Made by a program: the position numbers and the translations under genes
Origin: Dehalococcoidia bacterium
Lineage (GTDB): Bacteria; Chloroflexota; Dehalococcoidia; Dehalococcoidales; E44-bin46
Direction of reading: 5' to 3'
Length of the DNA stretch: 38,725 nucleotides
Assembly (NCBI GenBank): GCA_004376105.1
Contig: SOKA01000043.1
Location: 1 to 38,725 of the forward strand
Shown: positions 6,740 to 32,661 of the stretch, piece after piece
Numbering within the stretch: position 1 is the first letter of the stretch
How the letters are laid out: each line of letters begins with the position of its first letter
Notes under the pieces: model-generated
The model's database searches: none
Seen by the model: the letters and a program-made list of their open reading frames with translations, nothing else
What the model was told of the DNA's origin: nothing

Positions 6740-8992
6740 CTATTTTTCCACCCACTTTTCAACCTGGAGCAAAGTAGTGTTGGTGCAGAATGCACCAGCT
6801 GGTGATTTGGCATCCTTGGTCAGTACATTGGCGCAGCCGCCGTGGTCTATCCCTTTTTCATCGGGGTCATACCAAGCACCCTGCGGGATATTCACTACAC
6901 CGGGCATTATCCTTTGTGTAACCTCAGCCGGGAGAACCGTTTGTCCCCGGTCATTATAGACTCGAACCAAGTCCCCGTTAGAGATGCCCCTAGCCTGGGC
7001 ATCAGCAGTATTTATCTGTACGCTTTGAGGAATCAGCTCTCTAAGCCAAGGTATATTGTCAAACTGACTGTGTGCCCGTCTACGAGCATGGGTGGTGACC
7101 AGTTGCAATGGATACTTCTTTGCCAGAGGGTCGTTCCGGCCCTCCCAGACCTCAATATACTTTGGAATGGGTGGAAGCTGAGGGTTATCCCAGTCGGCTA
7201 ACTCTTGAGAATATATTTCGATCTTCCCTGAAGGAGTAGGGAAAGGGTGATTCTCCAAGTCTTCGATTTGTTCCTTAAAAGCCACATAGGGCTCATCAGT
7301 TGGGAACCTATAAAGGGCCTTCTTCTTAAGCGTTTCGTAATCGGAACCTTCTCTGTCCTTGGCAAAGACCTCTCTAAATCCCTCTACTATGCCCTTTAGC
7401 CATTCCTCTTCCGTTTTATCGTTATAATCATCGATACCCATTGCCTTGGCTATTCCGCTGGCTATCTCGAGGTGAGACTTAGATTCATAAAGAGGTTCTA
7501 CAGACTTGTTTACCATACCATACCAGGGAGTAGCCCCACCACTGGTAAAATCATTTCTTTCAAAGTAGGTATTGACCGGGAGCAATATATCGGCATACTT
7601 GGCGGTAACTGTCATAAACTGCTCCTGAACAGCAATAAACTCTAGAGCCTTAAAAGCTTCTATGGCCTTGTTAGTATTTAGAACCTGGTTGACATAGTTA
7701 GTATTTGCCAGATAGAGAAGCTTGTAATCGGCAGGATAGCCACCGGCCTTGCCTTTTAATACGGCATCGGCTATCTGACCAACATTTATTTTTACACTGC
7801 TATTCGCTTTAGAGCCGCGTGCTTTAACGGTATCCCGGCGCGTCGGCCATCCCTCCTCAACCGGATTCCTGGGAGCACCCATCCGCCCCTTGGTGCGGGC
7901 TAGAAAAGGCATCTCCCCACCCCAGTACTCGCCACCCCATGACCTGCCGCCGGAACTTCCCCCGCTGATACCTATATTGCCGGTCATAGCCGATAAGGTA
8001 ATAGCAGCGCGGTGATACTGCTCCCCATAGGCAGTACGCCCCGGCGCGATGCCGGTAATCAAGGCTGCCGGCTTGGTGGTAGCGTATTCTCGGGCTAACC
8101 TTTCGATGGTAGCTGCCTTTGCGCCAGTAATGGCCTCAGCCCAGGCGGGCGTCTTTGGTTTACCGTCGTCAATGCCTAATACATAGTCCCTGAATTTCTC
8201 GAAACCTACGGTATATTTGTCGAGGAATGCTTGGTCCTGGAGGTTTTCTGTAATAATCACATAAGCCATGGCAATAAGCATGGCGGCATCAGTACAGGGG
8301 TAAATAGGTACCCATTCATCAGCGAAGGTGGCTGCGGAATCTGTATACCTTGGGTCGATAGCAATGATTCTGGCGCCTGCTTCCTTAGCCTGGGCCAAAT
8401 AGTATGGAGTATTGCAACGGTGGATTGAAACCGCCGGGTCCCACGCCCACATTATTATCAGTCGGGAGTTGAGAAGGTCGTCCCTGGTACTGTTAGTCAT
8501 ATGCGTTCCGTAGGTAGCGCATTCGGCAAAGACGCCACCCTCGTAGGAAAAAAAGCCCCAAAGTGGAGTATAACCTCCGGCCATGCAGAGTAATCTGTGC
8601 ATTGGTGCCATGGTATGGAGAGTATGTACATCAGCCAGTGAACAGAAATAGATAATAGATGCTGGGCCATAGGTATCTCTGACCCGTATTAGCTCTTTAG
8701 CCACCGTGGAAAACGCTTCGTCCCAGGAGATTCGCTCAAACTTGCCTTCGCCCCTGGCCCCCACCCTCTTCATGGGATACTTGAGGCGGTCTGGAGCATA
8801 CAGCCGCTGTCGGTAAGCACGGCATCTTAGACAAGCCCGGAATTGAGGCTCTTCTCCATCATCAGTTTCGATCCTAATAACTGCACCGTCTTTAACGTGA
8901 ACTCTGAGCAGGCACGCTCCCCCGCAGTGGCTATTACATACAGTGTAGATAACCGTTTCATTATTCTCTGTTTGTTGGTTATTTTCGCTCAT
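6740..8992 (-). CDS. Molybdopterin oxidoreductase, DMSO reductase family, no Tat signal
   Basis: 750 aa; N-terminal CNSHCGGACLLRVHVKDG...CLRCRAYRQRLYAPDRLKYPMKRVGARGEGKFERISWDEAF, C-terminal molybdopterin dinucleotide-binding segment VTTHARRRAHSQFDN...NDRGQTVLPAEVT. Confidence 0.93.
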   Translation of the reverse strand: MSENNQQTENNETVIYTVCNSHCGGACLLRVHVKDGAVIRIETDDGEEPQFRACLRCRAYRQRLYAPDRLKYPMKRVGARGEGKFERISWDEAFSTVAKELIRVRDTYGPASIIYFCSLADVHTLHTMAPMHRLLCMAGGYTPLWGFFSYEGGVFAECATYGTHMTNSTRDDLLNSRLIIMWAWDPAVSIHRCNTPYYLAQAKEAGARIIAIDPRYTDSAATFADEWVPIYPCTDAAMLIAMAYVIITENLQDQAFLDKYTVGFEKFRDYVLGIDDGKPKTPAWAEAITGAKAATIERLAREYATTKPAALITGIAPGRTAYGEQYHRAAITLSAMTGNIGISGGSSGGRSWGGEYWGGEMPFLARTKGRMGAPRNPVEEGWPTRRDTVKARGSKANSSVKINVGQIADAVLKGKAGGYPADYKLLYLANTNYVNQVLNTNKAIEAFKALEFIAVQEQFMTVTAKYADILLPVNTYFERNDFTSGGATPWYGMVNKSVEPLYESKSHLEIASGIAKAMGIDDYNDKTEEEWLKGIVEGFREVFAKDREGSDYETLKKKALYRFPTDEPYVAFKEQIEDLENHPFPTPSGKIEIYSQELADWDNPQLPPIPKYIEVWEGRNDPLAKKYPLQLVTTHARRRAHSQFDNIPWLRELIPQSVQINTADAQARGISNGDLVRVYNDRGQTVLPAEVTQRIMPGVVNIPQGAWYDPDEKGIDHGGCANVLTKDAKSPAGAFCTNTTLLQVEKWVEK

Positions 8993-11025
8993 TTTTCCTC
9001 CGATGAAATTGCCTTGTCTGGCAGATGTTTCGGTTTAAATATAATGGAAGGCTTGGTGTTTGATGAATATGTAAAACCAACAGCCTCTTGAATATCTCCA
9101 TGTTTTACCTTCAGTTCTTCTATCGAACCCCAGTCCAAGGCTCGCATAATGCAGGCATCCACGCAGATAGGGTTTTTGTTCTCTTCCAGCCTGTCCAGAC
9201 AAAAGTCACATTTCTCCATCTTTGCCCCTTTTTCGGCTCCAAACTGAGGGACATCATAGGGACATACTCTGAGGCAAAGCCTCCCGGCACAGTTCACGCA
9301 CCTCTTGGCTTCGGTAATGGCCTGCTCCTCACCGTACCCCAGCGCTATCTCGTTAAAACTATGAACCCTTTCCTGTACAGAAAGAGTAGGCATTTCCTGC
9401 CGTTCGGCTTTAACAAGGTCAGCGGGTATCTCAACTTTAATATCTGAGGCTATGATGGGAACATCTATGTAGCTCTTTCCCAGAACCTCCCCCTTCAGAT
9501 AGCGGTCGATGTAGTATGCAGCCCTCTGTCCAGCCGCAATAGCGTCGATAACCCAGGCCGTTCCTGTAACTGCATCTCCCCCGGCAAAGACCCCAGGACG
9601 ACTGGTTTCCAGAGTTTCGGGGGCTACAGCGATGGTGCCACGTTTGGTTACCTTGATGTCGGTGCCCGCCAAGAGGGGGTTTAGCTCTGGAGATTGGCCG
9701 ATTGCGAATATAATCGTGTCTGCCGATAAGACATGCTCGGATCCTTCAATGGCCTCGAGGTGCAATTTCCCATTCTTATCAAACTCCATCCAGCGCAGTT
9801 TAAGGCACTCTACACCAGTAGCATATCCATTTTGGCACACAACTCTGTTGAAGGTGAGTGAGGGGTAAATGATTATTCCCTCCTTCCCAGCCTCAGCAAT
9901 GTCATAGTCTAGCGCTGGCATCTGCTCTCGGGACTCCAGGCATGCCACTTCCGCTTTTTGTGCTCCTAGGCGGAGAGCAACACGGGCACAATCAATGGCT
10001 ATACCGCCACCACCGAGCACTAGGACTCTCTGGCCCAGCTTTATCTTATTACCCAGATTTACGTCGCGCAGGAATGAGGTACCCACCAATACATTATCAG
10101 CTTCAGTGCCAGGAATAGATAGCTTATGGCCATTATGGGCCCCCACCGCAATGAAGATGGCTTTGTAACCCTGTCGAGATAGGTCATCCAAAGTCATCCC
10201 CTTACCTATAGGTGTGTTGGTCCTGATTTCTATCCCCAGACCTTTAAGATACTCAATGTCCCGGTTCAGGACTTCTCTCGGCAGGCGGTAATCAGGAATA
10301 CCGACCGCCATCATGCCTCCTATAACAGGAAGTGCTTCAAAGATTGTAACCTTATAGCCTTTTCTTATCAGATCGTAGGCTACGGAAAGCCCTGCCGGCC
10401 CTGAGCCAATAATGGCCACACCCTGCTCTTTTGTCCTGGGAAGAGGAGCCGTCTTTTCATCAACCACGGCATCATAGGCGAATCGCTTTAGGTCTCTAAT
10501 AGCCAGGGGCTTATCAACTTCACTTCTTTTGCACTCACTTTCACAAGGCTGAGAGCATACCCTGCCCAAAACGCCAGGCAAAGGTAGTTTCTCTCTCATC
10601 AAGTCTAGTGCCTCCTTAAACCTACCTTTACTAATTAGAGCGATATAGCCTGGTACATCCACATGAGCTGGGCAGGTTACCTCACAGGCAGACACATTTA
10701 TCTGGCCATTTCCGTTGGTGACAGTGATACCACAGCGTGCATTCTCCTGACACTTTTCCCTGTCCACTACGACTATGCCGTCCTCTTCTCTTCTGGTTAT
10801 CGCTTCGGCAGGACAAACCACGGCACAGAGAGGGTCCTCACAATGATAGCAGGCAGCGGAAAGGTAGGCCAAGAAAGGCTGAGGGAATTTCCCTTCTTCA
10901 AGTGGGGTTACCCTCCGCCAGTGAGCCGGCCCGGCGGGTATATCATGCCAGTCTTTACATGCTACGCAGCAGGTAAAGCACCCGATACACCTAGTCTGGT
11001 CGAAATAAAAGCCTGTCTGCATCAC
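8989..11025 (-). CDS. DmsB-type 4Fe-4S electron-transfer subunit with internal GltD-like FAD/NAD(P)H oxidoreductase module
   Basis: 678 aa; DmsB-like N-terminus (CIGCFTCCVACKDWHD...CYHCEDPLCAVVCP), GltD-like centre (GVAIIGSGPAGLSVAYDLIRKGYKVTIFEALPVIGGMM), DmsB-like C-terminus (CPYDVPQFGAEKGAKMEKCDFCLDRLEENKNPICVDACIMRALDWG); overlaps downstream molybdoenzyme by 4 nt. Confidence 0.9.
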   Translation of the reverse strand: MMQTGFYFDQTRCIGCFTCCVACKDWHDIPAGPAHWRRVTPLEEGKFPQPFLAYLSAACYHCEDPLCAVVCPAEAITRREEDGIVVVDREKCQENARCGITVTNGNGQINVSACEVTCPAHVDVPGYIALISKGRFKEALDLMREKLPLPGVLGRVCSQPCESECKRSEVDKPLAIRDLKRFAYDAVVDEKTAPLPRTKEQGVAIIGSGPAGLSVAYDLIRKGYKVTIFEALPVIGGMMAVGIPDYRLPREVLNRDIEYLKGLGIEIRTNTPIGKGMTLDDLSRQGYKAIFIAVGAHNGHKLSIPGTEADNVLVGTSFLRDVNLGNKIKLGQRVLVLGGGGIAIDCARVALRLGAQKAEVACLESREQMPALDYDIAEAGKEGIIIYPSLTFNRVVCQNGYATGVECLKLRWMEFDKNGKLHLEAIEGSEHVLSADTIIFAIGQSPELNPLLAGTDIKVTKRGTIAVAPETLETSRPGVFAGGDAVTGTAWVIDAIAAGQRAAYYIDRYLKGEVLGKSYIDVPIIASDIKVEIPADLVKAERQEMPTLSVQERVHSFNEIALGYGEEQAITEAKRCVNCAGRLCLRVCPYDVPQFGAEKGAKMEKCDFCLDRLEENKNPICVDACIMRALDWGSIEELKVKHGDIQEAVGFTYSSNTKPSIIFKPKHLPDKAISSEEK

Positions 11026-11084: not shown

Positions 11085-11537
11085 TTATTGGTTCGCCCCT
11101 TCACCTACAGTAGGGAATCCTTCTAGCTTCCATCCAATACACCCGCCCGTCATATTATAGACTTCCCAGAAATCAAGCTCCTCCATTATAGCTAAAGCGT
11201 TCCAGCCAGGACCATCACCACATGCGGAAACAGAATAAATGAGATACGCCTTATTCTTATCCAGCTGGTTAAGCTCATCCCTGAAAGTTTCAGAATCCAA
11301 ATCTATGTTGATAGCATTTTCTAAATGCTCATAGGCAAATTCTTCCGGGGTTCGCAGATCAATAATGACAAAATCGGGATTAACCTGGTTTTCCTGGACT
11401 AAGGTAAACGCCTCTTGTGGGGTAACATTTTCAATTATCTGGGCTTTGCCAATACAACCACCAGCTAACACAGCTACAATAACCAGCGATACCGAGAGCA
11501 CCAACATCACTAATTTTTTTAGACTCTTTTTTGCCAA
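11085..11537 (-). CDS. Rhodanese-domain lipoprotein, paralog A (probable TTG start at 11537; ORF track start 11561)
   Basis: Lipobox-type signal AKKSLKKLVMLVLSVSLVIVAVLAGGC; rhodanese core TPQEAFTLVQ...DFVIIDLRTPEEFAYEHLENAINIDL; start chosen by alignment with paralog at 23876. Confidence 0.85.
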   Translation of the reverse strand: MAKKSLKKLVMLVLSVSLVIVAVLAGGCIGKAQIIENVTPQEAFTLVQENQVNPDFVIIDLRTPEEFAYEHLENAINIDLDSETFRDELNQLDKNKAYLIYSVSACGDGPGWNALAIMEELDFWEVYNMTGGCIGWKLEGFPTVGEGANQ

Positions 11538-11553
11538 GGTTATCACCCCCTTT
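11444..11553 (-). repeat. Near-identical ~110-bp inverted copy of 23859-23969
   Basis: Reverse complement AAAGGGGGTGATAACCTTGGCAAAAAAGAGTCTAAAAAAATTAGTGATGTTGGTGCTCTCGGTATCGCTGGTTATTGTAGCTGTGTTAGC matches the 23859 region with only a few differences. Confidence 0.9.
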
Positions 11554-11580
11554 CTTTTCAATTATATTCCGGCGTGCTTG

Positions 11581-12510: not shown

Positions 12511-12960
12511 CTATCCTCCAGCCCTCTCCAATACCCTTATTGTGTCCCCCACCTTCACCAATCCCCCCCTGATTACCTTGGCAAATACTCCCTCTTTGGG
12601 CATGATGCACTTGCCTATCTGACGATATATGGCACATCCGATATGGCACTCTTTGCCAATTTGGGTGAGTTCCAAGACAATCTCTTCTTCAATACGTATG
12701 TGTGTGCCAACAGGAAGCGAGACCAATTCTATCCCCTCAGTGGTAAGATTTTCGGCGAAATCCCCAGGGCCTACATCAAAGCCCAGACCTCGCATCTTGT
12801 TGATGCTTTCAGTTGCCAACAGGCTTACTTGACGATGGGTACAGCAATCGGCATGAGCATCACCAACAAGACCATAATCGTCCTTAAGGACACCTTTAGC
12901 TACAGGTTTCTTCTTAGTACCTTTTTTCTTGCTCTTACAGACGGCAATTATTTTAGCCAT
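12511..12960 (-). CDS. MOSC domain protein (molybdenum cofactor sulfurase C-terminal type)
   Basis: 149 aa; GDAHADCCTHRQVSLLATESI...GPGDFAENLTTEGIELVSLPVGT...LELTQIGKECHIGCAIY. Confidence 0.88.
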   Translation of the reverse strand: MAKIIAVCKSKKKGTKKKPVAKGVLKDDYGLVGDAHADCCTHRQVSLLATESINKMRGLGFDVGPGDFAENLTTEGIELVSLPVGTHIRIEEEIVLELTQIGKECHIGCAIYRQIGKCIMPKEGVFAKVIRGGLVKVGDTIRVLERAGG

Positions 12961-24344: not shown

Positions 24345-24617
24345 AATATCATACGAATCTTTGGAAATATATGGTCTCTTTCTAGGCTCCATCCTCTTTT
24401 TTGGGGGTCTCAGCAAGGCCACCTTCAATGATATGAAAAGATAGCGACCTAATGTGCCACCTAACACCGTCAAATAGCGGGGAGTACACAAGGTGTCGTC
24501 GGCCTCCTGCTCCTTCATATAGCGGACGCGGATGAATCGGGAGGGCATCAGTTCCTGGTTGGCGATAGCCTGCTTGGCCTCAGTGATAAGCCAGGGGAAA
24601 ATAGTGCAGTGAGCTGA
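24345..24617 (-). pseudogene. Possible remnant of an unidentified gene
   Basis: Minus-strand frame ...HCTIFPWLITEAKQAIANQELMPSRFIRVRYMKEQEADDTLCTPRYL... is protein-like, lies in a different frame overlapping the 3' end of the hydrogenase protease, and lacks a proper start. Confidence 0.35.
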
Positions 24618-25068
24618 TCTCTTCTAAAACAAGATTTACGACTCTTGGTATAGCTTCCTTTACCTTTTGCGTCATTTCTTCAGTAACCTTGGTTACTTCC
24701 TGAGTGCCTACGGCAAAGACTATAATTTCTCCTGGTATCTGCTCTGCAAAAAGCTTTTTCCCTATTTCAATCGTGGTAGCAAGATTTAAATGGTGCGGTG
24801 AGATAGTCAAACGTACAGGTTCACCAGTATTCTCCGGCTTAAGCCTATATATTTCCCCTACTTTTTCATCCTCAGTCATAATTGCATCAATTACAATCAA
24901 CTTATCGTATCCAACAATGAGCTCTAATAAATTTAAGCCGTCTATGCTGGTATCCTTTACATCAATGTTTTCATCTTTAATTTCCTTAGCTAATTCTTGC
25001 GCAATATGAAACCCTATACCATCATCTCCCAGGATTGGATTACCTATACCTAAAACCAGAGTCCTCAC
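24580..25068 (-). CDS. [NiFe] hydrogenase maturation protease
   Basis: MRTLVLGIGNPILGDDGIGFHIAQELA...LIVIDAI...SPHHLNLATTIEIGKKL. Confidence 0.93.
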   Translation of the reverse strand: MRTLVLGIGNPILGDDGIGFHIAQELAKEIKDENIDVKDTSIDGLNLLELIVGYDKLIVIDAIMTEDEKVGEIYRLKPENTGEPVRLTISPHHLNLATTIEIGKKLFAEQIPGEIIVFAVGTQEVTKVTEEMTQKVKEAIPRVVNLVLEEISSLHYFPLAYH

Positions 25069-25069
25069 G

Positions 25070-26491
25070 CTAACTCCTCAACACTTGACGAATATTTCCA
25101 TCTGGGTCATAAATAGTGATTTCTAGAAGCATCTGACCTAGGGCATGTGTGGAGCAAGAGAGACAGGGGTCATAGCAGCGAATAGCCACCTCGACCCGAT
25201 TAAGTATCCCTTCAGTAACCTTCCCATCTTTGATAAATTCCCTAGCTACTTCATAGACAGCGCGATTCATTGCCAAATTATTATTACCGGTGGCTACAAT
25301 CAAATTGACCTTGCGCATCTTACCACTTTTGTCTACCCAATAATGGTGGAAAAGTGTCCCTCTGGGAGCTTCAATTACTCCTATGCCCTCCTCGTTAATC
25401 TGGCTCGAATTGACCCATATTTCCTTTGAGCAGATGAGTTCGTCTTGTACAAGTGACTTTATCTTTTCAGCGGCATTGAGCATCTCAATCAATCGGGCAT
25501 AGTGGTAGTATAACGACCCCTGCACTACGCCATTGTTGCTCAGTTTCTTGAAGCTAGCAAACTCTTTATTAGCTAGAGGAGTACTGCACCCATCGGCAAC
25601 ATTGAGTCGTCCTAAAGGTCCTACGCGGTACATACCACTGGGGTAACCCAGTTTCTTGTAATAAGGGAACTTAAGATAAGACCAATCCTCAACCTTTTCT
25701 TCAATGATGGAAAGGTAATTCTCAGGAGCTATATTATCTTCCAGGGTAACGCCTTTACTGTCTTTCAATCTCAGCTTTCCGTCATAATACTCAACGTTAC
25801 CATTATTATCTATAAGTCCGAGGTAGCCAGTGCCAAAATTAGCAAAGCTAGCAGCCTCCTCACTATGTTGAGTATAATCCTTAATCAGGTTAACGGCGAA
25901 CTGGCAGTCAGCGATAATATCATCCACTTGGCTTAGAATTTCATCACGCTTATCAAGACCAAGAGCCTTATTCATTCCCCCGGGGATAGCAGCATTGGGA
26001 TGAACTCTCTTATCCCCGAGCATCTCTATTATTTTCTGACCGAAAGCACGAATCTTTATTCCCTTTCTGGCAATTTCCGGCATCTCGGCAATAAGACCCA
26101 TGATATTTCGCTTAGCTGGGTCAGCAGCCATGCCGAAGAGCAGGTCGGGGCTAGCCAAGTAGAAAAAATGAAGGGCATGGGACTGAACAATCTGTGCCAT
26201 GTGAATTAGCCTGCGTAGCATCTCTGCTGTAGGTGTCAGCTTCACCCCCAAGATGACATCTCCAGCTTTAGCTGAAGCGAGGTGGTGACTTACCGGGCAG
26301 ATACCACAGATTCGGGCAGTAATGATTGGCATCTCCCAGAAAAGTCGCCCCTCACAAAACTTCTCGAATCCTCGCACTTGAGTAACATGAAACCTAGCTT
26401 TATCCACATTCCCTCTATCGTCAAGGTGGATGGTTACCTTGCCATGCCCCTCAACCCGGGTAACCGGCTCGATTGTAATCTTTCTAGTCAT
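25070..26491 (-). CDS. [NiFe] hydrogenase large subunit (group 3 / HoxH-like)
   Basis: L1 motif [20 protein letters not shown]2 motif DPCLSCSTH followed by cleavable tail [24 protein letters not shown]. Confidence 0.95.
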
Positions 26492-26514
26492 AATGCCTCC
26501 AGCGTTTTGAAATC

Positions 26515-27054
26515 TTAATCAAACCTCATCATCTCGCTCGGGAGCACTGGAATTCTACCCTCCAGAAGTTCGGTCAGAGCATAGTGAATAGCTTTAGAAG
26601 AGGGTGGGCATCCTGGGACATAACAGTCAACTTTAACTACTTGATTTACCGGCTTAACCTGCTCTAAAAGCGGCGGGATGTCTTCTGAGGAGGGAATCTT
26701 ACCGTTTTTAGTGCTCTCAGTCTCAATATAATACCTACGAAGAACCTCTTCTTTAGTGAATAGGTTGCGCATACTATTTATGCCTCCGAAACAAGCACAA
26801 TCACCCAATACCATCAGTATCTTGCAATTGGCACGCAAGTCTTTAGCTACTTCTTCATCATGAGGATTACTCACTGACCCTTCAATAATCCCAATATCAA
26901 CTGATGAAAATTCTTTAATATCGGTTATGGGAGTGGCGGTGAGTTCCATTACATCTGCCAGATCAATAAGTGCCTCATCCAAATCCAGAAAAGACATATG
27001 ACACCCAGAGCAACAATCTAACCACGCTGTAGCCACTTTTACCTTTGCCAACAT
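26515..27054 (-). CDS. [NiFe] hydrogenase small subunit (HoxY-like)
   Basis: 179 aa; WLDCCSGCHMSFLDLDEALIDL...IGIIEGSVSNPHDEEVAKDLRANCKILMVLGDCACFGG...VPGCPPSSKAIHYAL. Confidence 0.94.
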   Translation of the reverse strand: MLAKVKVATAWLDCCSGCHMSFLDLDEALIDLADVMELTATPITDIKEFSSVDIGIIEGSVSNPHDEEVAKDLRANCKILMVLGDCACFGGINSMRNLFTKEEVLRRYYIETESTKNGKIPSSEDIPPLLEQVKPVNQVVKVDCYVPGCPPSSKAIHYALTELLEGRIPVLPSEMMRFD

Positions 27055-27066
27055 TAGCCTCCCAAC

Positions 27067-29031
27067 TTAGGATAACCGGTGTCCCAATTTTTTGGAAATC
27101 TCTATTAATATTTCTTGATCCTGAGGTAGACCATCTTTGGGCTGAAGCACCTGTTTTAATTCGAGAACACGCCCATCCGTAGTCACATATTTGCCCTCTC
27201 TTTCCGCCCATATCGGCGAGGGCAGAACCACATTAGCCAGAGATGTAACCGATGAGTAATAACTTGTCTGCACTACCAGGAAATCTATTCCCTTAAGCCA
27301 ACTCAATAATTCCTCGCTCTCACGTTCGTCGGCGAGAAGGAGATAGAGTCCCTTCGGCTTGTCCTGCTTTATACCTTTGGCTAACCCTAACTCCCAGGCA
27401 CCACGACTATTAGCGCAGGGCTTAAGCGAGATAACCCTTAGCTCACCTTCAACTTGATTTCCGGTTATATTAGCCAAGTTTAAGATAGTGGTAATCGAGC
27501 TGGCATCATTCCCCTGCAGCAGCCCTTCTCCATAGATGATGACTCCATGCTCAGCCCAGCCATACATCTCCGCCGCCAACTCCAGTCTCTCATTCTCTAT
27601 GCCAGTGGTCCTGCTCACTTCGCCTGTTTCATACTGGCTAAGAGACTGAATAAGCTCGGCTTGTGCCTTTCCTGGCCCGACTAGACCCTTGTCAATAAGA
27701 ATCTTGGCTAGGCCGTTAAGAAGAACTCCTTCACTACCTGCCCTCGGTTTAAGCCAGAGGTCAGTCCAAAGGGGAAAAACATCCCTAGATGAGTCTATCA
27801 CTATCAACTTTGCCTTCCTTTGGCTCACTGCTCGGCGCACGAGAGTACTAATGATGGGATTGGTCTTCTCAGGATCGGCTCCTACTACAATAATGCAATC
27901 TGCCTCCAATATATCCTCAATAGGACACTCAATGTCCAGTCCCCTTCCATTATTCTGAAATAGCCTAATACCCTCGCTAATTATCCGATAGCTTTCTCCG
28001 TCCCGAGTATCAATCGAATCGCTACCTACTACCTCACCGATGAACTTATTAAATAAAGAAAGTGTCTCATTTGGAACCCTTGTAGATATCATACCAGCAA
28101 AGCCGTCTTTTGCCTCTGCCAGTCTCTCGACGATTACCTGCACTGCCTTATCTAGACTACATTCCTCTAGTTCACCTTGCTTACCTCGTACTAAGGGTGA
28201 GGTAATCCTAGGAGGAGTTGGCTCAAGCAACCTAAAGCGTCCCATTCTACACAGTGGCCCCCTTGGCTCTGTTAAGCTAGGCGCTTCAATCCTCACCAAG
28301 TTATTATCTTTCACCAGTACATTCAGTTCACAGCCTACTCCACAGGCAGGGCAAACGGTCTTTATCTGTTGACACTCATCCGTTTTGCCTTTGTAAAGAT
28401 TGAGTTTACTGAAAATAGCACCAGTAGGACATGCCTGAACACAGGCACCGCAAGAAGTACAAGATGATTCGCCTAGTGGTTGCTCCAGGTCGGCAGACAC
28501 CAGCGCTTTCCAGCCTCGCTGACTGAAATCTAGGGTATGACTTGCCGCTACTTCGCTACAGGCTCGAATGCACCTGCCACAGAGGATACAACGATTATGG
28601 TCAATTACCAAGTAATCGCTTAATGCATCCACAGGTAGAGAAGGAAAGGTATAAGGATAGCGCACGTTGTCCATCTGATATCGGTAAGCCAGTTTCTGTA
28701 GTTCACAATCCTCGCTTTGCTCACAGAACATACAGAAATGATTGTGCTCGGTAAATATGAGTTCCAATATCTGGCGACGATATCTCTCCAGCTGCTCAGT
28801 GTTGGTTTTCACCACCAGTCCGTCTCTGGCAAGATAGGTACAGGCAGGAACTGGGCTCCTCTCCTTTTCAATTTCTACCACACACATTCGGCAGGCCCCC
28901 ACATCGCTCAATCCTTCATGATGACAAAGGGTAGGCACATCAATACCATTAGCCTGACAAATCTCAAGAACAGTGTCTCCCTCTTTCCCTTTAACCTGCC
29001 TATCATTGATGGCTAAGGTTATTTCATTCAT
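27067..29031 (-). CDS. NuoG/HydA-like subunit: 2Fe-2S, His/Cys cluster, 2x4Fe-4S and molybdopterin-oxidoreductase-like domain
   Basis: 654 aa; CHHEGLSDVGACRMCVVEIE, HNHFCMFCEQSEDCELQ, CILCGRCIRAC, CTSCGACVQACPTGAIF, CPACGVGCELNVLVKDN. Confidence 0.92.
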   Translation of the reverse strand: MNEITLAINDRQVKGKEGDTVLEICQANGIDVPTLCHHEGLSDVGACRMCVVEIEKERSPVPACTYLARDGLVVKTNTEQLERYRRQILELIFTEHNHFCMFCEQSEDCELQKLAYRYQMDNVRYPYTFPSLPVDALSDYLVIDHNRCILCGRCIRACSEVAASHTLDFSQRGWKALVSADLEQPLGESSCTSCGACVQACPTGAIFSKLNLYKGKTDECQQIKTVCPACGVGCELNVLVKDNNLVRIEAPSLTEPRGPLCRMGRFRLLEPTPPRITSPLVRGKQGELEECSLDKAVQVIVERLAEAKDGFAGMISTRVPNETLSLFNKFIGEVVGSDSIDTRDGESYRIISEGIRLFQNNGRGLDIECPIEDILEADCIIVVGADPEKTNPIISTLVRRAVSQRKAKLIVIDSSRDVFPLWTDLWLKPRAGSEGVLLNGLAKILIDKGLVGPGKAQAELIQSLSQYETGEVSRTTGIENERLELAAEMYGWAEHGVIIYGEGLLQGNDASSITTILNLANITGNQVEGELRVISLKPCANSRGAWELGLAKGIKQDKPKGLYLLLADERESEELLSWLKGIDFLVVQTSYYSSVTSLANVVLPSPIWAEREGKYVTTDGRVLELKQVLQPKDGLPQDQEILIEISKKLGHRLS

Positions 29032-29034
29032 TGC

Positions 29035-32000
29035 TTATCCTCCAACCTCAAGATCGCATCTCAGACATCGTGACGCCTCTTCTCTGGCTTCTTCTGGGCT
29101 ATAGGGCAAAGTAACCTCCTTAAACGATGTTTTTCTTTTGCTCATGGCAATTTCTGAAGCCCTAATTCTGGCTTTTTCTTTTGTTTCTTCATCGCTAGGT
29201 GGTATAGAAGAGATGGCGATGGGTTCATAACCATTACGCTCTACCAAGGGTGCAAGCCCCTTCCCCTGCAGGTATCTTCTTATAGAGGAGGCTGCCCTCT
29301 GTCCGGCAGCAATGGCTTCAATTACTGTTTGAGGGCCACTGGCGGCATCTCCGCCAGCAAAAACGCCCTTTCTCCCGGTAGCCAGTGTCCGCCGGTCCAC
29401 CGCTACTGTCCCACCCCTTCCTGTTTGAATCTCACCATCCTTGATAAAAGAGGTATCCGGCCTTTGCCCTATAGCTTCGATAACCATATCTGTGTTTACC
29501 AAATATTCGGCCCCCTCAACAGGATTAGGGGTTCTTCTACCGCTTCGGTCAAATTCCCCTAGCTCCATAGGGATAAGCTCAAGTCCGCTGACCCTTCCAT
29601 CATTACCCAAAATCTTAGTCGGAGCCGTCAGGAAATGAAAATGGATTCCCTCTTCTTCAGCGGCTTCTGTCTCTTCAGCTATAGCGGGCATATCCTTCTT
29701 TTCCCGCCTATAGAATAGGTGTACTTCCTCAGCCCCCTTTCTTAGAGCCACTCTGGCAGAGTCAATGGCTGAGTTGCCACCACCAATAACAGCCACTCTC
29801 TTACCCACAGGTACTTTTTTGCCTAAATTGACCTCTCTTAGAAATTCAATAGCGTCATAGACTCCCTTCAGGTCTTCACCAGGAATGTTTGCCTTAGTCC
29901 CTTTATGAGCACCGGTAGCGATGAACACTGCTTTATAACCGTCCTTAAGCAAGAATTCAACATCACTAATCGGTGTATTTAGCCTTATATCCACTCCGAG
30001 ATTTTCGATCTCCTGGATTTCCTTCCTCAGAATATCTTTAGGCAGACGATATTCGGGGATAGCCACCGCTAGCATGCCTCCAGCTACCGGGAGCGCCTCA
30101 AATATAGTAACTTGGTACCCCTCCAGGGCCAGGTCCCAAGCGGCTGACAGCCCGGCGGGACCAGCCCCGATGATAGCTACCCTTTCCTCTTTCCCCTCCC
30201 TTATTCTAGGAGTATATTTGACCCCCGAATTGAAAGCGTAATCAGCAATAAATCTCCTAAGATCCCTGATAGCTATTGGTTCATCAATCTGAACTCGATT
30301 GCACTTAAACTCGCAAGGATGGTTACATACCCGACCGCATACAGCCGGTAAGGGATTACGCTGTTTGATTAAACAGTAAGCCTCAGCAAACTTACCCTCC
30401 TTAATCAAACTGACATAACCGGGAATGTCCAACTGTACTGGACAGGTGTGCTGGCACGGGGCTCTAAATAGACCCTGGCAAACGGCAGCGGGGCACTTTT
30501 TATCTATAATATGAGCCTCATACTCCTCACGGAAGTGTCGTAGTGTGGTTAACACTGGATTGGGACTCGTTTGCCCTAGACCACATAGAGAAGCCGAGGC
30601 AACCATTTCCGCTAGTTCTAGTAGGGTGTCTAGCTCTTCCAATGTTGCTTCTCCCCGGCTGACCTTGTTTAGAATCTGCAGCATCTCGGGGATCCCTGCC
30701 CGGCAAGGGATACATTTACCACAGGACTCGTCTCTGGTGAATTGAAGGAAAAACTTAGCTACATCTATCATACAGCTATCCTCATCCATTACAACGAGCC
30801 CGCCGGAGCCCATAATTGCCCCTAGAGCAGTAACAGCTTCATAGTCAATAGGCGTATTGAGATACTCTATAGGAATAACGCCGCCAGATGGCCCACCTAT
30901 CTGAACTGCCTTAAATTTCTTCCCCTCTGGTATCCCCCCGCCGATGTCGAACACAATTTTCCCCAGCGGTGTCCCCAGAGGAACTTCCACTAGCCCAGTG
31001 TTATTCACCTTTCCCACCAGGCATAGGGTTTTTGTGCCCTTGCTTTTCTCAGTGCCAACGCTGGCAAACCAATCAGCATCCCTCAAAATAATTTGAGGGA
31101 TATTTGACCATGTCTCCACATTATTGATGGTAGTAGGCTTGCCAAAGAGCCCTCCCCCAACGTTTGCCGGGAAGGGAGGCCTTTGCCTGGGATTCCCCCT
31201 TTCTCCTTCAATAGAATGCAGAAGAGCGGTTTCTTCTCCGCAGACAAAAGCACCAGCACCAGGGAAGATGTCAAGGGAAAACTCAAAACCGGTGCCTAGG
31301 ATATTCTTGCCCAGAAGTCCATATTCTCGGGCCTGGGCAATGGCGTGGCTTAGAGTCTCAATAGCCAGGGGATATTCAGCTCTGACATAGGCATAGCCCT
31401 GGCGAACATTCCCTATAGCACAGGCTCCGATTGCCATACCCTCGATTATGGAGTGAGGATTGCCTTCCAGAACCGCCCGGTTCATATAGGCACCCGGATC
31501 GCCTTCGTCACCGTTACAAACTACGTATTTTTCCTCACTAGGTGCACTACGAACAAACCCCCACTTCGTGGCCGTGGGAAAGCCGGCTCCACCCCGACCA
31601 CGTAACCCCGCTTTCTTAACCTCATCAATGACCTCCTCAGGCTTCATCTGAGTCAAGACCTTACCCAAGGCTTGATAGCCACCTCTAGCAATATACTGTT
31701 CAATATCCATTGGGTCGAGGTCTTGATTATGCATTACTCTTATCTCTTGAAACTTAAGCAGAGGCTCATCCAGAGCTAACGTCCACTCCTTAACCGGTCT
31801 CCCTCCCACCAAATGCTCTTCAACAATTCGGTGGAGCTTATCCTCATCAAGGTCACAGTAGATAACCTTTTCCTCTCCGGGAGCAATGACTGTCACCACA
31901 GGCTCACGGCCACAGAGCCCTATACATCCTGCCCTCAATACGACAACATCTAATAGCTTGCGTAACTCTACCTCCCTAACAAAAGCATCTAAAATCTTAT

Positions 32001-32133
32001 TTGCCCCCGAAGAGATGCCACATGTCCCCAAATGTACCTTGACTTGAATCTTCTTTTCCTGCTTTGCCAGTCTTGCTTTAGCTTGCCTCTCTAAATTCAC
32101 TAGCTCTTCTACAGAACTGAGTGGACTCATCAT
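29035..32133 (-). CDS. NuoF/HydB-like NADH-binding subunit fused to GltD/NfnB-like flavoprotein module
   Basis: 1032 aa; N-terminal thioredoxin-like 2Fe-2S, GLRGRGGAGFPTATKWGFV, NGDEGDPGAYMNR, ESCGKCIPCRAG; C-terminal ERVAIIGAGPAGLSAAWDLALEGYQVTIFEALPVAGGML. Confidence 0.94.
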   Translation of the reverse strand: MMSPLSSVEELVNLERQAKARLAKQEKKIQVKVHLGTCGISSGANKILDAFVREVELRKLLDVVVLRAGCIGLCGREPVVTVIAPGEEKVIYCDLDEDKLHRIVEEHLVGGRPVKEWTLALDEPLLKFQEIRVMHNQDLDPMDIEQYIARGGYQALGKVLTQMKPEEVIDEVKKAGLRGRGGAGFPTATKWGFVRSAPSEEKYVVCNGDEGDPGAYMNRAVLEGNPHSIIEGMAIGACAIGNVRQGYAYVRAEYPLAIETLSHAIAQAREYGLLGKNILGTGFEFSLDIFPGAGAFVCGEETALLHSIEGERGNPRQRPPFPANVGGGLFGKPTTINNVETWSNIPQIILRDADWFASVGTEKSKGTKTLCLVGKVNNTGLVEVPLGTPLGKIVFDIGGGIPEGKKFKAVQIGGPSGGVIPIEYLNTPIDYEAVTALGAIMGSGGLVVMDEDSCMIDVAKFFLQFTRDESCGKCIPCRAGIPEMLQILNKVSRGEATLEELDTLLELAEMVASASLCGLGQTSPNPVLTTLRHFREEYEAHIIDKKCPAAVCQGLFRAPCQHTCPVQLDIPGYVSLIKEGKFAEAYCLIKQRNPLPAVCGRVCNHPCEFKCNRVQIDEPIAIRDLRRFIADYAFNSGVKYTPRIREGKEERVAIIGAGPAGLSAAWDLALEGYQVTIFEALPVAGGMLAVAIPEYRLPKDILRKEIQEIENLGVDIRLNTPISDVEFLLKDGYKAVFIATGAHKGTKANIPGEDLKGVYDAIEFLREVNLGKKVPVGKRVAVIGGGNSAIDSARVALRKGAEEVHLFYRREKKDMPAIAEETEAAEEEGIHFHFLTAPTKILGNDGRVSGLELIPMELGEFDRSGRRTPNPVEGAEYLVNTDMVIEAIGQRPDTSFIKDGEIQTGRGGTVAVDRRTLATGRKGVFAGGDAASGPQTVIEAIAAGQRAASSIRRYLQGKGLAPLVERNGYEPIAISSIPPSDEETKEKARIRASEIAMSKRKTSFKEVTLPYSPEEAREEASRCLRCDLEVGG

Positions 32134-32148
32134 CTTTGTTAGACCTTC

Positions 32149-32661
32149 CTATCGATAAGAATTCAGAATATCCTCTATCTGGCTGGGTTTGACCTTTCTA
32201 TGGACATCTTCACCAATAGCCATCACCGGGGATAGACCACAGCAGCCTAGGCAGCGGACAGTCTCCAGAGAAAACCTGCCATCGGCAGTAATTCCCTCAG
32301 GTTCGAGGCTCCACTTCTTCTTTAACGTATCCAGAAGCCTCTGCCCTCCCTTAACATAGCAACTGGTACCCATACATACTTGAATAACATACTTACCCTT
32401 AGGCACCATAGAAAAGAAGTGATAAAAACTGATAATCCCATATACCTCGCTGAGAGGAACCTTTAGATCTCTGGAGATAGTCTTTATTACTGGTGCTGGA
32501 AGATAGCCAATTAGCCCTTGTGCCTGCTGCAAAACCCGAATGAGAGCACCAGCTTGCCCACCGGTATCGCCAATTATTCGCTGAACCTGGGCAAAAATCC
32601 TCCCCGCATACCCAATACCAATTTCCCGCCTTGGGGGCACATCAATCTCAATCCGGTCCAT
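32149..32661 (-). CDS. NuoE/HydC-like 2Fe-2S subunit
   Basis: AGALIRVLQQAQGLIGYLPAPVIKTISRDLKVPLSEVYGIISFYHFFSMVPKGKYVIQVCMGTSCYVKGG...VRCLGCCGLSPVMAIGEDVH. Confidence 0.94.
   Translation of the reverse strand: MDRIEIDVPPRREIGIGYAGRIFAQVQRIIGDTGGQAGALIRVLQQAQGLIGYLPAPVIKTISRDLKVPLSEVYGIISFYHFFSMVPKGKYVIQVCMGTSCYVKGGQRLLDTLKKKWSLEPEGITADGRFSLETVRCLGCCGLSPVMAIGEDVHRKVKPSQIEDILNSYR

Follow-up and report, generated by a model that had tools for sequence, protein, structure and literature searches.

The usual explanation for a modular redox enzyme is that its parts were fused end to end or that subunits were recruited. In E. coli AegA/YgfT (PRK12769, PRK12809), the closest characterised analogue of the protein described here, one chain joins a four-motif, HydN-like ferredoxin to a GltD module; reading of the E. 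coli protein gives a tandem order, with the ferredoxin motifs at residues 12-137 followed by an unpermuted GltD at about 195-655 in which the YRR motif is present. These proteins have been implicated with formate dehydrogenase H (PMC8097209). StnC and Nfn-ABC (8oh5, 9bov, 9n5u) carry a permuted GltD with a C-terminal RCxEC, again with YRR, joined end to end to NuoG/FdhF-type domains derived from molybdopterin enzymes, and the partner of StnC is a HydBC-type bifurcating module. DmsB (TIGR02951) has four Cys motifs, and its gene lies adjacent to, and overlaps, that of DmsA/YnfE. Here, we describe a 678-residue DmsB-type protein, the split B subunit, that is interrupted within its third Cys motif by a complete GltD/NfnB-like flavoprotein module and is encoded beside a DmsA/YnfE-like catalytic partner. 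The genes lie in the window, that is, the whole 38,725-nucleotide stretch of contig SOKA01000043.1 (assembly GCA_004376105.1, a Dehalococcoidia bacterium). We are nearly certain that this architecture is real and conserved. It is assembled from known modules and is apparently undescribed; no account of a GltD nested within a DmsB motif was found in the open-access literature searched.

The split B gene stands on the minus strand (Table 1), which a preliminary description of the window had left unstated while identifying the open reading frame (ORF) correctly. Its start is more likely the ATG at 11022, behind GAGGAG, than the GTG at 11025. Pfam profiles match the protein in nested order, with Fer4_20 at residues 111-190 (E 1e-25), Pyr_redox_2 at 203-497 (E 1.5e-30), and Fer4_11 at 573-633, and the NCBIfam profile DMSO_dmsB matches it as two stretches, one at each terminus (E 1.3e-48), the N-terminal one spanning residues 3-116. 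This domain order is far beyond chance. The two stretches together reach 165.1 bits, under the equivalog cut-off of 214.1, and uninterrupted relatives likewise fall short at 189-192 bits; judged from their sequences, the split and unsplit proteins are a sister subfamily and not DmsB proper. The best whole-chain NCBIfam match is PRK12771 (NF009410), at 457 bits (E 6.5e-137) and below the cut-off of 516. PRK12771 and DsrL resemble the split B subunit in having a GltD module and then a C-terminal two-cluster ferredoxin, but in them no N-terminal DmsB half is present to close with the C-terminal part. The AegA and YgfT equivalog cut-offs (1003 and 1154 bits) are missed as well, at 283 and 234 bits.

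The insertion point could be placed by alignment with the uninterrupted relatives, of which a scan of 84,980 species genomes gave about 60 (L033-L087, L093). These are proteins of ~185 residues, 42-71% identical to the first half of the split protein and 42-67% identical to the second, and most of them adjoin the same type of partner, a DmsA-like gene. No separate GltD gene was seen beside the uninterrupted pairs, many of which lie on short contigs. The insert, ~485 residues long, lies between the second Cys and the third in motif III, a space that spans 2-3 residues in the uninterrupted relatives. In 50 unsplit proteins, this motif follows the pattern KC-x5-C-x2/3-C-x3-C(P)Y..PQF, which is missed by 24 others, mostly from more distant subfamilies and some with longer gaps; in the split protein, it runs C92-x5-C98, continues after the insert with C584-x3-C588-PY..PQF, and is followed by motif IV (C606, C609, C621, C625).

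The preliminary description had proposed a nested insertion, not an end-to-end fusion, of a complete module with its own Cys clusters and two dinucleotide-binding motifs. Both points stand, the first from the domain matches, the relatives aligning to both halves and the structural model described below, the second from Fer4_20, Pyr_redox_2, and alignments, which place the dinucleotide motifs at GSGPAG (207-212) and GGGGIA (338-343). The bounds it gave (DNA 9301-10749, after residue ~92) shift to those of Table 1, after the second motif III Cys. Its second DmsB half, begun at residue ~576, holds from C584, as homology assigns C576 and C579 to the inserted module. A reading of the C-terminal Cys region as a mere GltD tail was rejected: RC576xxC579 is indeed such a tail, but from C584 onward the chain is the second DmsB half, with the identity to uninterrupted relatives given above.

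Table 1. Features of the split B locus and of other genes in the window (all on the minus strand; residue numbers refer to the 678-residue protein).
Feature	Coordinates	Strand	Evidence
Catalytic partner, DmsA/YnfE-like molybdopterin subunit, 750 aa	6740..8992	-	Profile matches, alignments
Split B subunit, 678 aa: GltD-like module nested in a DmsB-type ferredoxin	8989..11025	-	ORF, Pfam/NCBIfam matches, full-length relatives
First DmsB part (residues 2-98), with motifs I and II and the initial Cys pair of motif III	10732..11022	-	TIGR02951 stretch 3-116; 42-71% identity to uninterrupted relatives
Fe-S motif I: C13 C16 C19 C23	10957..10989	-	Invariant in 11 split and 71 unsplit rows
Fe-S motif II: C59 C62 C67 C71	10813..10851	-	Invariant in 11 split and 71 unsplit rows
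Motif III, first half: C92-x5-C98	10732..10752	-	Kept in 58/58 close unsplit relatives without GltD
Inserted NAD(P)H-FAD module of permuted GltD/NfnB-like type, residues ~99-583, carrying two clusters of its own	9277..10731	-	Fer4_20, Pyr_redox_2, 9bov_A, unsplit alignment
GltD N-terminal Fe-S region, residues 111-190: C114 C118 C157 C161 C165 K180	10456..10695	-	Fer4_20; Cys invariant in 19 rows
Rossmann domains for FAD and NAD(P)H, residues 203-497	9535..10419	-	Pyr_redox_2; alignments
Module tail, residues 541-580, helix EEQAITEAKRC576VNC579, counterpart of NfnB N-terminal segment	9286..9405	-	Alignment to 4ylf_B 6-54, 5jca_L 7-46
Second DmsB part, residues 584-667: C584 C588 (motif III), motif IV	9025..9276	-	Fer4_11; 42-67% identity to unsplit relatives; Cys invariant
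Rhodanese-domain protein, lipoprotein-like signal (lipobox LAGGC)	11085..11561	-	
MOSC-domain protein (molybdenum cofactor sulfurase C-terminal type)	12511..12960	-	
Operon resembling multisubunit [NiFe] hydrogenase of HydABCSL type	24580..32661	-	
NuoE-like gene of that operon	32149..32661	-	
NuoF with second GltD module, 1032 aa	29035..32133	-	
NuoG-like gene	27067..29031	-	
179-aa ORF in small-subunit position	26515..27054	-	
NiFe large subunit	25070..26491	-	

Since the source genome is a metagenome-assembled genome (MAG) of 91 contigs, an assembly chimera or a dead fusion had to be considered. The search for the same architecture elsewhere, however, found ten further distinct genomes with the full-length split protein, 49-80% identical to that of the window. 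The window's own genome has one copy. Within the class, the architecture is present in 5 of 393 sampled genomes, namely the window's, G034 (80% identity), G103 (58%), G042 (57%), and G349 (50%); a 400-genome sample of the phylum has it in the window's genome and G034 only. The scan of species genomes added Deltaproteobacteria (L025-L027), a Pseudomonadales MAG (L028), and Lokiarchaeia (L030 and L032), and L024, from another Dehalococcoidia MAG, is a 99% copy of the window's protein. The alignment of the eleven distinct split proteins covers them from end to end and shows all 23 Cys to be invariant, and a DmsA-like gene lies within 154 bp of every split gene, usually overlapping or abutting it. 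An identical insertion point in eleven distinct proteins from independent assemblies excludes a chimera, whose probability we put as practically negligible. In the Lokiarchaeia, L030 and L032 hold a split A-B pair and an uninterrupted pair at the same locus, on opposite strands and a few kb apart, with a MaoC-like gene and a gene resembling a ferredoxin-containing regulator between them.

AlphaFold 2 (AF2), run on the 678-residue chain alone with 71 uninterrupted relatives added to the alignment, returned a mean predicted local distance difference test (pLDDT) score of 92.7 and a predicted template modelling score (pTM) of 0.91. In this run, informed by the unsplit relatives, pLDDT is mostly 88-98 in both DmsB halves, and the weaker zones are mainly residues 91-110, residues 511-520, and the tail. 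The model supports one compact ferredoxin that would be built from both ends of the chain. Foldseek gives Nfn-ABC, StnC, and NfnB as the best fold matches of the module, which shares 40% identity with 9bov_A across 480 structural columns. All top-50 matches of the PDB fold search are GltD-type proteins, and they do not address closure of the ferredoxin.

Among relatives with solved structures, StnC and Nfn-ABC come closest to the inserted module (37-40% identity), and they share its permutation. The canonical N-terminal RCxxC ahead of CxxxCP is absent from the module, the segment lying C-terminally (541-580) as in StnC; otherwise, by its motifs and ligands, the module has both the FAD and NAD(P)H Rossmann domains and two [4Fe-4S] sites. 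In NfnB, the distal cluster is held by C39, C42, C47, and C100 and the proximal one by C51, C90, C96, and E117 (PMC7596348). On alignment, C114 corresponds to C47, C118 to C51, and C157, C161, and C165 to the following three. C576 and C579 match C39 and C42, because the segment ER..F.E..GY.EEQA..EAKRC..C, N-terminal in NfnB, sits C-terminally here. K180 aligns with StnC K170, a ligand of the proximal cluster (PMC10482914), and is Lys in 10 of the 11 split proteins and Arg in L015.

All 23 Cys can thus be distributed: seven, together with one Lys, match the GltD/StnC clusters, and the 16 that match the uninterrupted relatives form four motifs, I-IV, in order, conserved across the 11 split and 58 close unsplit proteins. 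The simplest assignment from these alignments leaves each ligand with its own module, so that motif III would comprise C92, C98, C584, and C588, the GltD distal cluster C114, C165, C576, and C579, and the proximal cluster C118, C157, C161, and K180. Alternatively, C576-C579-C584-C588 could form a full motif III, with C92 and C98 recruited to the GltD distal cluster, which would alter the anatomy of the metal sites and leave the electron path unchanged. The spacing C576-x2-C579-x4-C584-x3-C588 is by itself that of a full Fe-S motif, and its whole length aligns with NfnB. The exchange is unnecessary, though, as unsplit relatives lacking GltD retain C92 and C98, and C576 and C579 are kept in 7 of 7 GltD rows without DmsB motif III, two of which (L017, L018) have no C-x5-C-type pair before C114; moreover, the GltD domain of StnC (102-565) has the identical RCLEC ending (PMC10482914). 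We therefore consider a ligand exchange possible but doubtful. A first assignment that moved C92 and C98 to the GltD module was dropped once Cys conservation had been checked in proteins that have only one of the two parts.

The B-gene stop overlaps the start of the A gene as ATGA. The 750-residue partner scores 686 bits with dmsA_ynfE (TIGR02166), below the cut-off of 778, so that, compared with DmsB/DmsA, both subunits fall under their NCBIfam cut-offs. Its Ser149, invariant in 21 homologues, aligns with Ser147 of dimethyl sulfoxide (DMSO) reductase, which we take to be the Mo ligand; by sequence, the partner would be a Ser-ligated DmsA-type catalytic subunit. The genome also encodes MoaA. 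The Tat (twin-arginine translocation) export and DmsC anchor of DmsABC/YnfFGH are both missing: a loose RR motif was seen in just 2 of 75 N-termini, none was flagged among the partners of split proteins, the 750-residue one included, and no recurrent membrane anchor gene was found near split or unsplit pairs. The Eggerthellaceae catechol dehydroxylases and their B subunits (L088-L102) are a more distant pair of the DMSO-reductase family. Their DmsB-like halves are 40-50% identical, but the B subunit, of ~248 residues, is uninterrupted and the catalytic subunits are just 29-35% identical.

Where, then, would electrons enter? In NarH, FS1/FS2 come from motifs I and IV and FS3/FS4 from motifs II and III, FS4 being nearest the membrane anchor. 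FS1:FS2 share one lobe and FS3:FS4 the other (PMC8301774), and in NarGHI-type enzymes electrons pass FS0-FS4 in order (PMC8840923). Since motif III belongs to the FS3/FS4 lobe, the GltD module would sit at the anchor-facing end and not mid-wire; the placement of the flavin in the middle of a four-cluster wire, as originally proposed, is probably wrong spatially on this homology. By analogy, the flavin probably feeds the distal end, where DmsC or NarI would dock, replacing the membrane anchor. Entry at that end agrees with the missing Tat signals in the partners of split proteins and with the missing anchor gene. The uninterrupted relatives, having no anchor either, are probably soluble and use another donor.

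We propose, as a fairly probable reading, that the pair is a soluble, cytoplasmic, DmsAB-like molybdo/tungsto-reductase in which NAD(P)H, most likely NADH, takes the place of the membrane quinol pool. Electrons would pass from NADH to FAD, to the proximal [4Fe-4S] cluster (C118, C157, C161, K180), to the distal one (C114, C165, C576, C579), and on to the FS4/FS3 lobe of motifs II and III. From there, they would cross FS2/FS1 (motifs I and IV) to FS0 and the Mo-bis(pyranopterin guanine dinucleotide) (Mo-bisPGD) in the 750-residue partner, and finally reach an organic or inorganic oxide, the net reaction probably being an NADH-dependent reduction of the substrate. This path would involve six [4Fe-4S] clusters in B and one in A. 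Because the module enters and leaves the chain beside its own distal cluster, with C584 five residues beyond C579, the place of insertion should by itself hold the two cluster chains within tunnelling distance. As for the nucleotide, YRR of NfnB is an NADP-binding motif (PMC7596348). In the window's protein it is replaced by CLESRE, and 9 of the 11 split proteins are CLE-like, which suggests NADH rather than NADPH as the predicted donor.

Several observations weigh against this proposal. When AF2 was given split and GltD sequences only, it resolved the GltD module and left the DmsB halves below pLDDT 50; the confident model drew on unsplit relatives, and the alignment behind it set their final Cys pair of motif III against C114 and C118. 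The choice between NADH and NADPH is drawn from one motif, and L015 retains YRR while L016 has neither motif. Substrate, cofactor, and activity of the AB complex are predictions from sequence, and the neighbours in the window (the rhodanese lipoprotein, NadA, Sua5, IlvD) offer no hint of a substrate.

Electrons might also run the other way, the enzyme acting as a substrate dehydrogenase or hydroxylase whose Mo centre delivers them to NAD+ by way of the wire and the flavin. In principle, flavins of the GltD type can work in both directions, relatives of DsrL reduce NAD+ (PMC7596348), and enoyl-CoA hydratase, thiolase, CoA ligase, and VOC genes stand near some relatives, as in catabolic clusters. 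However, the A subunit is closest to DmsA/YnfE and the S/N-oxide reductases with a Ser ligand, and the wires of related enzymes hold clusters far above -320 mV (PMC8840923), which favours flow from NADH to the substrate; we regard the reverse direction as unlikely. Bifurcation at the GltD flavin, with one electron going to the Mo centre and the other to ferredoxin as in NfnAB, appears highly improbable. It would fit the homology of the module to NfnB and the retained equivalent of NfnB R201 (R247 in GIPDYRL), but the proximal cluster has Lys (K180), as in the non-bifurcating StnC, and not the Glu of NfnB (PMC10482914), and the vicinity of the pair showed no recognisable NfnA-like second flavin subunit.

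As to the substrate, the relatives' neighbourhoods, with genes named by reading their sequences as VOC proteins, OYE-type reductase, CoA enzymes, and a branched-chain ABC transporter, point weakly to organic compounds. VOC-superfamily-like genes recur beside DmsA-like genes at L021, L022, L046, and L056, a possible substrate clue, and L022 also has the branched-chain-type ABC transporter and the OYE-type reductase.

The two subunits have different histories, since the catalytic partners of the split proteins do not form one clade: their tree requires five label changes, and constraining them to one clade costs 658 log-likelihood units (approximately unbiased (AU) test, p 2.7e-8). The safe statement is that either the split B acquired new partners from several A lineages or it was exchanged with unsplit B. 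For the ferredoxin halves, a quick tree unites the split proteins (SH-aLRT 87), and a careful tree requires two changes and recovers a single origin in just 11% of bootstraps, being compatible with one, two or three origins. In the insert tree, the inserts are nearly together, with L015 outside. The identical insertion point favours a single insertion; a single origin as an established result was set aside, as neither the careful tree nor the placement of L015 shows one. Two other large fusions with permuted GltD modules, L017 (G029) and L009 (G002), have a CLE/PES-type NAD motif in place of YRR, and their modules branch near the inserts, of which they may be sources.

Elsewhere in the window, the rhodanese-domain gene lies directly upstream of the split B gene, and the MOSC-domain gene a few genes upstream of the molybdoenzyme pair. 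The hydrogenase-like operon includes a second GltD module, fused to NuoF end to end.

In the split B subunit, by contrast with end-to-end fusion or subunit recruitment, a whole flavoprotein stands between two Cys of one Fe-S motif, neither ligand set has been lost, and the uninterrupted relatives allow direct comparison. It is tempting to propose that the nested subunit is a transferable plug-in, a suggestion that we hold in even balance: a GltD within motif III would turn a quinol- or ferredoxin-fed DmsB wire into one fed by NADH at its anchor-facing end, and its exchange among catalytic lineages in bacteria and Lokiarchaea would yield soluble NADH-driven molybdo/tungsto-reductases with different substrates. 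The arrangement predicts a soluble NADH route into DmsA-type enzymes, which normally rely on membrane quinol. It may also represent a natural design rule, by which flavin and Fe-S modules are wired at tunnelling distance, and it would mark uncharacterised NADH-dependent molybdoenzymes in the MAGs of Chloroflexota and Lokiarchaea.

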